From: Mya arenaria
Taxonomy: Eukaryota > Mollusca > Bivalvia > Myida > Myidae
Assembly (NCBI RefSeq): GCF_026914265.1
Contig: NC_069132.1
Span: forward strand, 68,834,993 to 68,898,992
Length of the DNA stretch: 64,000 nt
Reading direction: 5' to 3'
Numbering within the stretch: the first letter of the stretch is position 1; every line of letters begins with the position of its first letter. Of this stretch, positions 18,058 to 49,400 are shown in pieces. The notes beneath the pieces were generated by a model. That model did no database searches and was not told the DNA's origin. It saw nothing but the letters and a program-made list of their open reading frames with translations. The position numbers were made by a program, and so were the translations under genes.

Positions 18058-20037
18058 GTCTATACGTGCATGTCAAGTTCGCAATCTTACTAAATGGCAA
18101 GTTCTTCTTTGCTTGCCACGCATATATTGAGGATATGATTTTAGATTAGGTTGGTCAAGTCCATTATCTTACTAAAGGGCACGTTCTTCTTTGCTTGCCA
18201 CACGTATATTGAGGATATGATTTTAGATTAGGTTGGTCAAGTCCATTATCTTACTAAAGGGCACGTTCTTCTTTGCTTGCCACGCGTATATTGAGTATAT
18301 AATTTTAGATCAGGTTGGAGAAGTCCATTATCTCACTAAAGGGCACGTACTTCTTTGCTTGCCACGCGTATTTTGAGGATATGATTTTAGATTAGGTTGG
18401 TCAAGTCCATTATCTTACTAAAGGGCACGATCTTCTTTGCTTGCCACGGGTATATTGAGGATATGATTTTAGATTAGGTTGGTCAAGTCCATTATCTTAC
18501 TAAAGGGCACGATCTTCTTTGCTTGCCACGGGTATATTGAGGATATGATTTTAGATCAGGTTGGTCAAGTCCATTATCTTACTAAAGGGAACGATCTTCT
18601 TTGCTTGCCACGCGTATATTGAGGATATGATTTTAGATTAGGTTGGTCAAGTCCATTATCTTACTAAAGGGCACGATCTTCTTTGCTTGCCACGGGTATA
18701 TTGAGGATATGATTTTAGATCAGGTTTGAGAAGCCCGTTATCTTACTAAAGGGCACGATGCTCTTTGCTTGCCACGAGTATATTGAGTATATGACTTGTG
18801 ATCAGATTGGATAAATCCATGATCTTACTAAAGGGCACGATCTTCTTTGCTTGCCACGCGTATATTGAGGATATGATTTTAGATCAGGTTGGAGAAGCCC
18901 GTTATCTTACTAAAGGGCACGATCTTCTTTGCTTGCCACGCGTATATTGAGGATATGACTTGTGATCAGATTGGATAAGTCCATTATCTTACTAAAGGGC
19001 ACGCTCTTCTTTGCTTGCCACGCGTATATTTAGGATATGATTTTAGATTAGGTTGGTCAAGTCCATTATCTTACTAAAGGGCACGATCTTCTTTGCTTGC
19101 CACGCGTATATTGAGGATATGACTTGTGATCAGATTGGATAAGTCCATTATCTTACTAAAGGGCACGATCTTCTTTGCTTGCCACGCGTATATTGAGGAT
19201 ATGACTTGTGATCAGATTGGAGAAGCCCGTTATCTTACTAAAGAACAAGTTCTTCTTTGCTTGCCACGCGAATATTGAGGGTATGATCTGAGATCAGATT
19301 TGAGAAGTCACTTATCTTACTTAAGGGCGCGATCTTCTTTGCTTGCCACGTGAATATTGAGGATATGATTTTAGATTAGGTTGGAGAAGTCCGTTACCTT
19401 ACTAAAAGGCACGATCTTCTTTGCTTACAACGCTATACTGAGGATATGATTTTAGATTAGGTTGGTCAAGTCCATTATCTTACTAAAGGGCACGATGCTC
19501 TTTGCTTGCCACGCGTATATTGAGGATATGATTTTAGATCAGGTTCGAGAATTCCGTGATCTTACTAAAGGGCACGATGCTCTTTGCTTGCCATGAGTAT
19601 ATTGAGGATATGATTTTAGATCAGGTTGGTGAAGTCCGTTATCTTACTAAACGGCACGATCTTCTTTGCTTGCCACGCGAATATTGAGGATATGATTTTA
19701 GATCAGGTTCGAGAATTCCGTGATCTAACTAAAGGGCACGATGCTCTTTGCTTGCCACGCGAATATTGAGGATATGATTTTAGATCAGGTTCGAGAAGTC
19801 CGTGATCTTACAAAAGGGCACAATCTTCTTTGCTTGCCACGAGTATATTGAGGATATGATTTTTGATCAGGTTGGTCAAGTCCATTATCTCACAAAAGGG
19901 CACGATCTTCTTTGCTTGCCACGCGAATATTGAGGGTATGATCGGAGATCAGATTTGAGAAGTCACTTATCTTACTTAAGGGCGCGATCTTCTTTGCTTG
20001 CCACGCGTATATTGAGGATATGATTTTAGATTAGATC
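18058..20037. repeat. 82-bp satellite array, about 24 units
   Basis: A head-to-tail array with unit length of about 82 bp. Each unit contains cttctttgcttgccacgcgt, attgaggatatgattttaga and ttatcttactaaagggcacg. Variants differ at a few positions (for example ttaggttggtcaagtcc against tcagattggataagtcc), and these variants alternate in places, suggesting higher-order units. It begins about 340 bp after the TMED stop codon. There are no separate spacers, so it is a satellite and not a CRISPR-like array. Confidence 0.95.
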
Positions 20038-43406: not shown

Positions 43407-46400
43407 TCAGAACAATTTACTGGGCGGAGATCCAAGAGTCTGAGAGCCAGAAACCCTGGTCTGTTCCTGATTCCTAGATTGCATTTTGACCGGGAAACCA
43501 GCCCCCGACGTTAAAAGTCTTGTCCCAGTAACATGCAAGTTTGCCACTGTCCTGGCATTTGACTGGTTAATACTGACATTTCCACTTGTCCCTGACCTAC
43601 TTAGACCTGACGTTCCTGTATGAGTGACAGCTCCGACACTCCCACTACTTCTAAGCCCCTCCCTCACACTACCGGTTGTCATCGGGCCAACATTTCCTGA
43701 ACTGCCAATCACTCCGGTCAAACTGAATGCCCCTCCCCCTGAAGATAAAGTCCCGCCCCCGCTGGTTAATCCACCACCCCCACTCCCATGTCCCTGGGTC
43801 GAGTTGTCACACCCCAGCCCCTGCCTGTGGGGCCTGGTACTGGCCAAAACGGGGGTCCTGATACCCGTCCCGTCTATACCAAGGCCCTGCCCGGGGTTCC
43901 AGCCCATCTGCTGTAACATACGGTTCCCAATATTGGTGTCTGGAATTGGCTCGGAATCCCCACCTACTAATCCTGAAAAGATATAAGATTGATACTAGAC
44001 AAGTGAAATGACACTAATTCGGATTAAGACTGCCCTCAGTAATTAACTACTTTGTTTAGCAGAAGACTATAATGATACCAAATATTTGTCAGTCCAGGGT
44101 TATCATGTGACTAGTTAATAAATCCATAAGTGTAATAGTTATGAGTATTTATATAAGGTTGGATTGGGGTCATGTTACTTGTTTTGAGCCTAATACCAAT
44201 GTTATACAGCCTACTTTAAAGGAAGTCACACATGTTGTTAAATGTGTAATTTCTGTGAGGATAGATAATACCAGATTCACAAACTGCATGTCGTTAACTT
44301 ACTTATTCCTATCCATACATTGTCAAGGGTTTTTGCTGCAGCCCCAACACATTACCACTAATTTTAGGTCTCTTATGCATTCTCTCGAAATTAATTCAAT
44401 AAAATAATTTTTTAAAAAGAAAGAAAATATATCGATATAAAGTGTGAAATATTATTATCCTACCAAATATTGGTGGTGGTGTTTTTCTTTGGCGTTTGCT
44501 GTCAGTAAGTGTGTTAGATGTTGGAACCCCTGTAGGGCTTGTGAATCGGGAAGCAAGTTTCCCTTGAATACTGTTCCACTTGTGTCGCTCTTGGATAAAA
44601 TGCTGGACCGTGTAGCCAGGTATCTGGAACATAGAATTAAATTTTGGTAAACTGGGAAGCAAGTTTACTATTAGATGATATAAATAAAGTTCCGATTGAC
44701 AGCAGAGGTTAACTGGAAAGTAAATTTTCCCTTAATATTGTTTCAGTTGGGTGTCTCTTGTATTAACCGCTGAACATGTATCTAGAACATGAGAACATAG
44801 AAATATAGTTCCTATTGATAGCTGAGGTGATCTGGGATGCCACTTTTCCTTAAATTTTGTTTCAATAATGGATAATTTGCTGAACTTATAACCAGGTATC
44901 TAGAACACAAATAGAGTTCCTATTACTAGCAGAGGTATGAAATGTTGGTGAACACTGTAGCAATTTTTCCTGGAATACTGTTCCACTTGCTGCACATTGT
45001 GGCTAGGTATTTAGAACATGGACCTAGAATCCATATTGTATGGGGTATTTTAGTAAATGATAGCAGTAGAGATAATCCTTTTAAAGTGAACAGGAAAACA
45101 AATTTTCCCTAAACACTGTTCCACCTGTGTTGCTAATGGATAATCTGTGAACCATGTAGACCAATATCTAGAACAATACATTGGAGTAAATAGTGTCTGA
45201 ATGACCAATCGGAACTCCTCGGCCTTTTTCCATCAAAAACAAACTCCTACAGTCAGATTTCATTCAAAAAATTAATTGTGCTGCAAGTAGATTGTGTAGT
45301 GATCTTAACAAAGCACTTTACCCATTGGAGTCTTATTATTTATACAATAATACACTTGCAATCAATTTGGTCTAAGGAAAAAACATTACATGTTAAAACA
45401 CTACAATCAGTCATCAAAATTAGACTTTTAAATGAACAAGCCTGAATCCTTATACTATTGCTTGGCATCAATTTTCTTAACAAGACCAGCTACCGAGCTC
45501 TATAATATTTAGAATTTTAACAAGCCCGGAAGATATTTTACCATTGCAGGGCTTGTGGGCTTGTGTTAATTTCAACTTCTGCACAATTAATTAATAATAT
45601 TAATTAAAATTTTATCAACAACTTCCGCTGATGTCCCAGCATACACCCGAGATTGTTTTCATTGAAAATAACTAAGGAGTTCCAATTTTCTGATTGACTT
45701 CAGAAAATAAGATTTTATAAACATTTAGTGATGTGGGAAGCAACTTTTCAGTGAATACTTGGATTTCAGAGACAATTGGTGAACTAGATAATCCTCTGAC
45801 CTGTGCATATGGTCTAGTTTTTATAACCTGAAAACTTTGTCATACTGCTTTTAAGTATTTTTAAGTAAATTGTAAAGTCATTAAATAAACTTATATCAGG
45901 ACATACCTTTCCTCTTAGCTTTCTTCTACCGAATCGTATTTCCCTTCCACACTGAAATAACAAATACATGTACATGTAATACAGAATGTCATATGTGAAA
46001 TAATATCTGACCTCATGAATGTACATTGTATTTTATTTCTCTTTTCTGAGGGAGGTGTGATATTTTTTAAAGAGTTCAGTTACGTTGTGTGAAATTTCAA
46101 CAAACTTCAACTATTAAAACAATACATGTGTTTACTACCCCATAGCCTTTGATCTGTATTGCTGATTTCGAGATTTAATCTCTTGCCATTTTGGCGAAAC
46201 CAAAATTTATTTGTACGCCTGAAAGTATTTGGAGTATGCCTAGGTACGCCCCTGCTCAACAATTTTTCTACGAAATGAGACGAGCCAATTTACATGTACA
46301 TACATGTCTCATGATCCGTGTCATGCGAGCTTTGAAGCCGACTTGCGAGGACCTAGAAAGGTGTTGAAAACTGCCAGTTAGGATCTGCTGGAAGTGTTTG

Positions 46401-49400
46401 TCCGACACCATCGTCTCATCACCGCTGTTCACACCGTCGTTTTCCCACCATGGTATGACGCCAGGGATTCCACTCGCTGGCCCACTCTCATGGAAGAAGT
46501 CGCTCTGTTCATCATCAGCTGAGAGTAAAAATGGTATTTTTAATTGATTTTAATAACTTTAATGTTTTCATCAAGAGGTAACATAGATGGATCGAACAGC
46601 TTCTGATGTTCAAAAAATGGGCAAACAATGAGTCGATGATACCTTTTACCCTTTGCCATTGTTTAAATTTTGGTCCATTTTTCTAAAAAATTCTACAGCA
46701 AAACACATCATTCAGCCAAAAAACAGGCCTACAGATGAACTTGATTTTACAATCAAAACTTTTGTGATTTATAATCTTTAAAATAGTTTCCTTTAACAGT
46801 TTCAAAACCCTTTTATAAAAATGAGAATATTAGACATCTTAAAAAATACTTTGCTGGGCTTGATCCTGTTTTAAGGGACTTTAGATTGTTAAAGAAAGTT
46901 GGGCCTGTTCTATTAATAACTTTTATTTAATACAAATAAATATTTAAATTAAAATCAATCTGTGCAATCAAGTCCCCTAAGATACAAACAGATGATATTA
47001 TCAACCTATTTTCATGTTTTGATGACATGTGTCTATATTGAATACCTTTACTTTAAATTATGGCAAAAAAATAAAATTGTTAGTTGCCTAAAAACATACT
47101 GTCAGTCAGTAAGGGTTTCATTTTTAAGATTAAGATGTCTCTGAATGTCATTTCCACACTTTTAAACTGTTACTATTTTGTCTAAGTCAATTTTTATGAT
47201 AGCCCTCTTTAAAAACCTGTCATTTAGTGGTCTATAAAGAAAATAGAGTTAAACAAATAAGGTTTGTCAGGAGACACGATATGAGAAACTTCATATATAT
47301 ATTTACCAAAAAGTAAAAAAAGTCAGAAATAACTGTTAATGAGCAATAACAGAATAATAAGGGTTTGGTTAAATAAATAAGGGTCCATCAGGAAACTAGA
47401 AACATAACAATTTCGTTTACACCTAATCATACCTTCTGCAGTTACACAGTACTCATCCCCAGACACCGAATCACTGCTGCAGCTGCTACTTATAGTTGAA
47501 CTACTGCTCTCTCTGTGGTTAAGAAAAATATTATAAATATAAAAAATCCAGATTAAAACAACTGTTAACTACAAACCAGCATAACTTTTTTTTTTTATGA
47601 AGACATTCCCAAAACAAGAGGCACATCAGTGCCTGTGCTCCACTGGCCAAAAGGTTCAAGCAAAGACCACCTAACGAACATTTTCGTCAAGTTTCATAGA
47701 AATACAATCATCAATTTTTGAGGAGAAGTTATTTAAAAATTTTTTTTACTTTAATAGCTCTGGCTGCCATGTTGTGCAGTGGACCGAAATGATTTGGGCA
47801 ATTTGAGTAAAGGAGCACCAAACAAACATTTCTGTCAAGTTTTATCGAAAAAAGGTCATCGGTTTCGACGACAAGTCGTATAAAGTTTTTTTTATTTTTT
47901 AGCTCTGGCAGCCATGGTGTGCAGTGGACTGGAACCATTTAACAAATTTTGGTTAATGACCACCCAAGGAACATTTCTGTCAAGTTTCATCAAAATCTGA
48001 TCATCGGTTTCTGAGGAGAAGTGGTGTCAAGGTTTTTCCTATTTTTAGCTCTGGCTGCCATGTTGTGCAGCGGACCGGAACCATTTGGGCAATTTTGGTT
48101 AAAGGGCATCCCGATGAACATTTATGTAAAGTTTCATCAAAATCTGATAATCGGTTTCTGAGAAGATGTAGTTTAACGTTTTTTTCTATTCTTAGCTCTG
48201 GTGCCCATGTTGTGCAGCAGACCAGAACTGTTTGGGCTATTTTGGTTAAGGACTACCCAAGTAACATTTCTGTCAAGTTTCATTGAAATACGATCATCGG
48301 TTTCTGAATAGAAGTCGTTTAAAGGTTTTTCTATTTTTACCTCTGGGGGCCATCTTGTGCAGTGGACCGGAACCATTTGAGCAATTTTGGTAAAGGACCA
48401 CCAAAGGAACATTCCTGTGAAGTTTTGTCAAAATCCGCTTATCAGTTTCAGAGGAGATGTCGTTTAAAGTAAAAGTTTACGCACGCACGCACGCACTCAC
48501 GACGGACAATCTGTGACGACATAAGCTCCATGGCCTTCGGCCAGTGGAGCTAAAAATGTCTCATTCACAACTCCATGAAACAGAATAAATAATTAAATTT
48601 AAAAGCATTTGATTTGATTTTTTAAAACTTAGCTGCTGTTGCTATTTTTATATACTGTAACCAAACATAACTAAACATTTAAACCCTTCACCCACATACA
48701 TGTACATACATTTACATGTTATTATTGCTGAAGTAATTTTCAATATACATGAACAAACTTACTGAGAATTCATGGTTGAATCTTGAACAGAGTCATCATC
48801 TTTATTAAAGCAATCGTCTGCCTGAAAGTCAGTCTTCCTGGAATTTCTCTTCCTTTTCCCTGGTACTGTATCTTCCGTCACCCCTTCTTTGTTTATCTGG
48901 GGAAATCCTCCACCATCCATTGGACTTGTACCCATACTACATCGTGGCAGCTCCATTGTTTTGCTACGTGGTCTACTGAACTTAGGTTTGCCTTGTATGG
49001 GCGAGTCATGTTGAGACGAAGATGGGTCAGGATCAATTGCCATTGTCTTGTACTTCTTTCGTCTTCTTTGTGGCCGAATTGGAGAAAACAGAGACTCGTT
49101 TACTGAATCTGACTCAACTTGTGTTGGTACATAGTTAATACTAAGTGGCATTGTTAATCTCACTATATGATGTGCTATAGTGAGATCATCAGAGTCACTC
49201 TGTGCACAATTCTCCATGTAGTCTTTCAAAGCTTCATCGATACTGCTTTGTGATGTTTCGCTGAAATTCCCATTATCCGGCTGGTGACGTTTCCTACGAC
49301 CGCGACGTTTTCTTGGATGGCGACGTGTACTTGATGAAGATGCTCCATGTCCCCCGTCACTCTTGGAACGCTTGTGTGAGGCTGCATCTTCCAGAGCCAT

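Follow-up and report, generated by a model that had tools for sequence, protein, structure and literature searches.

We found that an intron of a GPATCH2-like gene in the bivalve Mya arenaria contains five decayed copies and one partial copy of the start of the exon that follows it. The gene lies on the minus strand of the window, a stretch of 64,000 nucleotides (nt) of contig NC_069132.1 (positions 68,834,993 to 68,898,992, assembly GCF_026914265.1), and its upstream intron is therefore found at higher coordinates. The copies are placed in the intron at 44624-45906, between the exons numbered 5 and 6 in an earlier first-pass annotation of this DNA, whose numbering is used here. The array is probably an old and apparently inactive "mirage", a name coined for the Adh3 case and used for the amphioxus globin gene BflGb6 in PMC3087553; as judged from the DNA sequence of this single bivalve genome, a segment spanning the splice acceptor would have been duplicated in tandem and would then have decayed beside a constrained exon.

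The units are tandem, on the same strand and minisatellite-like, and they span the predicted exon-intron boundary of the host gene, with the acceptor and the first 83 of the 160 nt of exon 6 in each unit. Direct repeats of the exon 6 start were located at the lower coordinates given in Table 1 for the exon, the partial copy and the five copies, and repeats of the acceptor side at 44882, 44993 and 45150, besides the exon's own one at 44606. The spacing from start to start is 167 base pairs (bp) from the exon to the first full copy, with the partial unit in between, followed by 119, 121 and 138 bp and then by 642 bp across a putative insertion. Hence the earlier description of about six copies at about 120 bp holds as five copies and a partial one at mostly 119-138 bp, with the copy at 45728 cut off by the putative insertion, and the recurrence of exon sequence together with its acceptor, which had also been described, is confined to the first part of the exon.

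Pieces of the exons were compared with seven blocks, using 300 dinucleotide shuffles per intron block. The 83-nt exon start scored 59 in the block holding c1b and c1, 48 in c2, 52 in c3, 76 in c4 and 36 in c5, and these scores were reached by none of the 300 shuffles in any of the five copy blocks, which bears out the first-pass claim of decayed tandem copies. The same piece showed no match in the block that covers the putative insertion (45200-45690) or in the downstream intron, where 223 and 300 of the 300 shuffles reached its score. In all seven blocks, between 100 and 284 of the 300 shuffles did at least as well as the remaining 77 nt of exon 6, and between 49 and 272 did at least as well as exon 5, so that neither piece is repeated there. 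Tandem Repeats Finder, run at a score of 50, did not report the array.

We propose that several rounds of tandem duplication, for which slippage or unequal exchange is presumed as the mechanism, copied a segment that began with a short piece of intron and continued through the 3′ splice site into the first 83 nt of exon 6. The unit adjoining the rest of the exon would have stayed the working exon, held by selection on the protein, and the upstream copies would have become plain intron and decayed. A later insertion would then have divided the array.

The exons were modeled from the open reading frame, the flanking AG and GT and the phases that join them. The protein joined from exon 5, exon 6, the G-patch exon and the exon that precedes these contains a G-patch domain (Pfam PF01585, E value 1e-16). 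The name GPATCH2 is based on this domain, on the naming in the first-pass annotation and on the human protein; DSKRQRKTPP of the clam compared with DIKRRRKAAP of the human protein gave a shuffle p of 0.08. A search of IMG/VR for a relative of exons 5-7 returned 17 stretches that fit the pattern, none of which was confirmed.

Table 1. Coordinates, in the window, of the array units and of the features around them.
Feature	Position	Strand	Remarks
GPATCH2-like exon 6	44464..44623	-	160 nt, starts in phase 0 and ends in phase 1; open frame between AG and GT, phases compatible with exon 5 and G-patch exon
Repeated part of exon 6 (terminal array unit)	44541..44623	-	First 83 nt of exon; direct repeats and shuffle test
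Exon 6 acceptor region, TTCTATGTTCCAG	44624..44636	-	Common to copies
Partial copy c1b	44647..44678	-	Acceptor position without AG
Linker, intron-only part of unit	44682..44709	-	Recurs at 44801-44828 and 44909-44936
Copy c1	44708..44794 (outer end approximate)	-	Acceptor AG (44782) kept, internal stop
Copy c2	44827..44912 (outer end approximate)	-	Acceptor AG (44900) kept; same frame as exon 6, one stop between
Copy c3	44948..45023 (outer end approximate)	-	Acceptor AG lost (TTCTAA), internal deletion
Copy c4	45086..45180 (outer end approximate)	-	Acceptor AG (45168) kept, out of frame, stops
Putative insertion	45205..45690		Inverted arms 45207-45238 and 45656-45687, 75% complementary; holds dispersed repeat
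Copy c5	45728..45823 (outer end approximate)	-	Most diverged, past the putative insertion; acceptor state alignment-dependent
Exon 5	45907..45951	-	45 nt, starts and ends in phase 0; predicted from frame and splice sites
G-patch exon	Upstream border 43972	-	Joins in frame with exons 5 and 6

Splice signals of the copies

The acceptor AG is kept in c1, c2 and c4 and lost in c3 and c1b, and in c5 the result varies with the alignment. Reading in phase 0 from the acceptors of c1, c2 and c4 meets a stop before exon 6 in all three cases. All copies are without the 3′ half of the exon and hence without its donor. The first-pass annotation suggested that alternative acceptors, or a longer exon, could come from the copies; this is not borne out, since the three copies that clearly retain AG all read into a stop. 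Coding extension through the copy acceptors was rejected because of these stops, and alternative or mutually exclusive coding exons were rejected because of the stops and of the missing 3′ half and donor. Judging from the reading frames, use of the c1, c2 or c4 acceptors would truncate the protein upstream of the G-patch domain.

It is very unlikely that the copies regulate the gene as alternative 3′ splice sites that give rise to poison or extended exons. The AG retained at the acceptor position of three copies is compatible with such a role, but the stops that follow exclude a coding extension, if not a poison exon, and the AG is lost in c3 and in the partial copy. In addition, amphioxus mirages with splice signals are reported in PMC3087553 and PMC3902484 as not disturbing splicing, and for BflGb6 reverse transcription polymerase chain reaction suggests that regular splicing is undisturbed (PMC3087553). 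The copy acceptors look like fossils. The sequence of the array carries no sign that it is kept or active, a function is not supported, and splicing presumably ignores the copies.

Locus specificity, the second genome copy and the putative insertion

The genome searched comprises 1,216,080,610 bases in 18 contigs. Array DNA from 44632-45200 and exon DNA from 44470-44650 each matched two genome places only, with E values up to 10 considered, in a search whose first pass may miss strongly diverged relatives. The second place lies near C11:67.911 Mb, about 968 kb off, and is 99% identical; the exon protein was found in the same two places and is 100% identical between them. The two genome copies differ by 9 substitutions in 577 nt at 44624-45200 with no gap, and over 44624-45906 there are no gapped columns and thus no difference in array length. 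Exon 6 differs by 1 substitution in 160 nt, which is synonymous by codon reading. Instead of true duplications, such paired copies may reflect an assembly that kept second haplotypes, and the two copies of the array may be alleles.

Most of the window is collinear with C11 67.83-67.97 Mb at 93-99% identity, with 24 BLAST rows listed and gaps between the rows. Several PDZ-domain matches also come as pairs on the same contig, about 0.25-2.1 Mb apart and with equal or near-equal scores.

Inverted arms delimit a stretch of about 480 bp in the interval from the copy at 45086 to the one at 45728. This stretch holds a dispersed repeat of about 170-180 bp (approximately 45408-45587) which occurs in at least 41 other places at 75-88% identity. 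This count is a lower bound: 40 of 3877 candidates were scored, and 41 of the 43 matches belong to the repeat, the remaining two being the locus itself and its near-identical copy. We infer that an older array was split by an insertion and that c5 was thereby cut off from the rest.

This dispersed repeat falls inside the span first reported for the array, as would be expected if the array were a dispersed repeat family and exon 6 an exonised member of it. However, the insertion stretch does not match the exon in the shuffle test given above, and outside the locus and its near-identical copy the 1.2-Gb genome gave no match to exon or array DNA at E values up to 10, although strongly diverged members may escape the search. 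The first-pass annotation had itself raised the case of a dispersed family that matches the copies better than exon 6 does; no such family was found, and this origin has a negligible probability. A dispersed-repeat origin of the exon was accordingly rejected, its DNA, the array DNA and the exon protein being found only at the locus and the near-identical copy.

Order of exon and array

The order of exon and array was assessed with one alignment that takes the exon as its reference and is thereby biased towards it, two reference-free MAFFT alignments and five alignments with a copy as the reference. In the exon-referenced alignment, the identity is 75-80% between exon and copies and 64-76% between copies. 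In the same alignment, 4 of 79 positions of the exon differ from the consensus formed by the other units, and for c1-c5 the counts are 13/75, 12/75, 10/68, 10/79 and 19/80. The first MAFFT alignment gives 8/72 for the exon and 23/79, 16/76, 17/70, 20/80 and 28/76 for c1-c5, and the second gives 6/72 for the exon and 19/78, 15/79, 13/68, 16/79 and 26/76 for c1-c5. Thus, the exon shows the least departure in all three, which is in line with the earlier proposal that it is the source. By codon position 1, 2 and 3, the departures of the exon are 0/23, 0/23 and 3/21 in the exon-referenced alignment, and 1/23, 1/22 and 4/17 as well as 1/23, 1/22 and 3/16 by MAFFT. The pattern agrees with stronger constraint on the exon than on the copies. 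The unique part of exon 6 has four AGs, none of them in phase 0, and since exon 5 ends in phase 0, the reading frame can be kept only with an acceptor that lies within the repeated part or past it. An exon that came first is favoured by these comparisons of the units but not proven, as early exonisation of an array would leave the same picture.

Several results weigh against an exon that came first. With a copy as the reference, the reference copy departs least in every one of the five runs; among the other units the exon (11-12 departures at 62-81 positions) ranks lowest in three runs, is tied in another and comes second in the remaining one. The exon has a small excess at third positions, with one-sided Fisher p values of 0.028, 0.043 and 0.108, and the copies lean the same way, with sums for c1-c5 of 17/110 at position 1, 15/109 at position 2 and 25/100 at position 3 in the exon-referenced alignment. 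Compared with segments of human GPATCH2 and GPATCH2L, the repeated half of exon 6 gave no significant match (shuffle p 0.09 and 0.80). Finally, the exon borders come from frame and AG/GT alone.

These points bear on the possibility that the array came first as a locus-specific intronic tandem repeat, and that exon 6 was extended upstream through the acceptor of its last unit, so that the first 27-28 residues are an exonised repeat constrained since then. Since the repeated half has no significant human match, its antiquity is not established, which leaves room for this order, and the vertebrate-like SKRQRKTPPP is confined to the non-repeated half. This peptide had been taken as a reason why the exon is likely the source; being encoded outside the repeated part, it gives no help on direction. 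However, the exon unit is near the consensus, which means that exonisation must have come early in the life of the array, and the unique part offers no obvious earlier acceptor. We regard an exonised older array as rather unlikely, and a duplication that started from the exon accounts better for the near-consensus exon unit and the frame.

The differences between copies are greater at third codon positions, with permutation p values of 0.054-0.094 over three alignments and two copy sets. Neutral copies of the same age should not show such an excess, so it is a weak hint of staggered shedding. We consider it unlikely that the working exon gave rise to its copies at various times, which would make the array a fossil record of the synonymous history of the exon, and that mirages are widespread in bivalves as a route of intron growth.

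Known mirages and the local repeat background

The first-pass annotation held that the repeat is not of a standard type; the amphioxus mirages described in PMC3087553 share its structure. In BflGb6, one haplotype has 6 units and another 3, and the units measure 150-160 bp and are 81-100% identical. As in the clam, there are several boundary-spanning units, and many but not all of them carry the splice signal, which is reported as typical of mirages. In contrast, the units of the GPATCH2-like array are about 119-138 bp long and 64-80% identical, the host is a mollusc and not amphioxus, and the array is the same, with no gap, in both genome copies of the clam, whereas the number of units varies between the BflGb6 haplotypes. 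Such instability in length is reported for the known mirages, although their definition does not require it. Imperfect mirage-like repeats are also described in lancelet PGBD5, and a troponin C case is named, in PMC3902484; PGBD5 has 3 units of 108 bp, which is fewer copies than in the clam, in another gene and another phylum. Human genes in segmental duplications likewise show tandem expansion at exon-intron boundaries, as internal tandem repeats, but these have units of 30 bp on average, are recent and are tied to novel introns with RNA support (PMC2812944). In its structure, the clam array fits the description of a mirage, and no new class is needed.

Among the titles and opening lines of abstracts listed by literature searches, which for one search covered 20 of 59 papers, none describes such a case in a mollusc, and no paper combining GPATCH2 with bivalve was found. 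Our results suggest that repeats which copy a splice junction, described in amphioxus, occur in a mollusc too, and that such repeats, once decayed, can survive as fossils next to a working exon with no evident effect. The array is thereby an example of intron growth and of tolerance of decoy splice sites.

For 160 of the 737 tested 83-nt segments of the window, a match on the same strand lies no more than about 1.3 kb away, at a threshold borrowed from the exon shuffle test and with simple repeats included; 90 segments have two or more matches and 36 have four or more on one side. Tandem Repeats Finder gave 25 rows in the window, some of them overlapping. Together, these counts show that local tandem duplication is common in the window, and such duplication would be expected to include an exon border from time to time. 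One tandem array, at 18084-20031, has 23.8 copies of an 82-bp unit with 89% matches. Another, at 47665-48470 and thus at higher coordinates than the exon 6 array, has 5.5 copies of a 145-bp unit.
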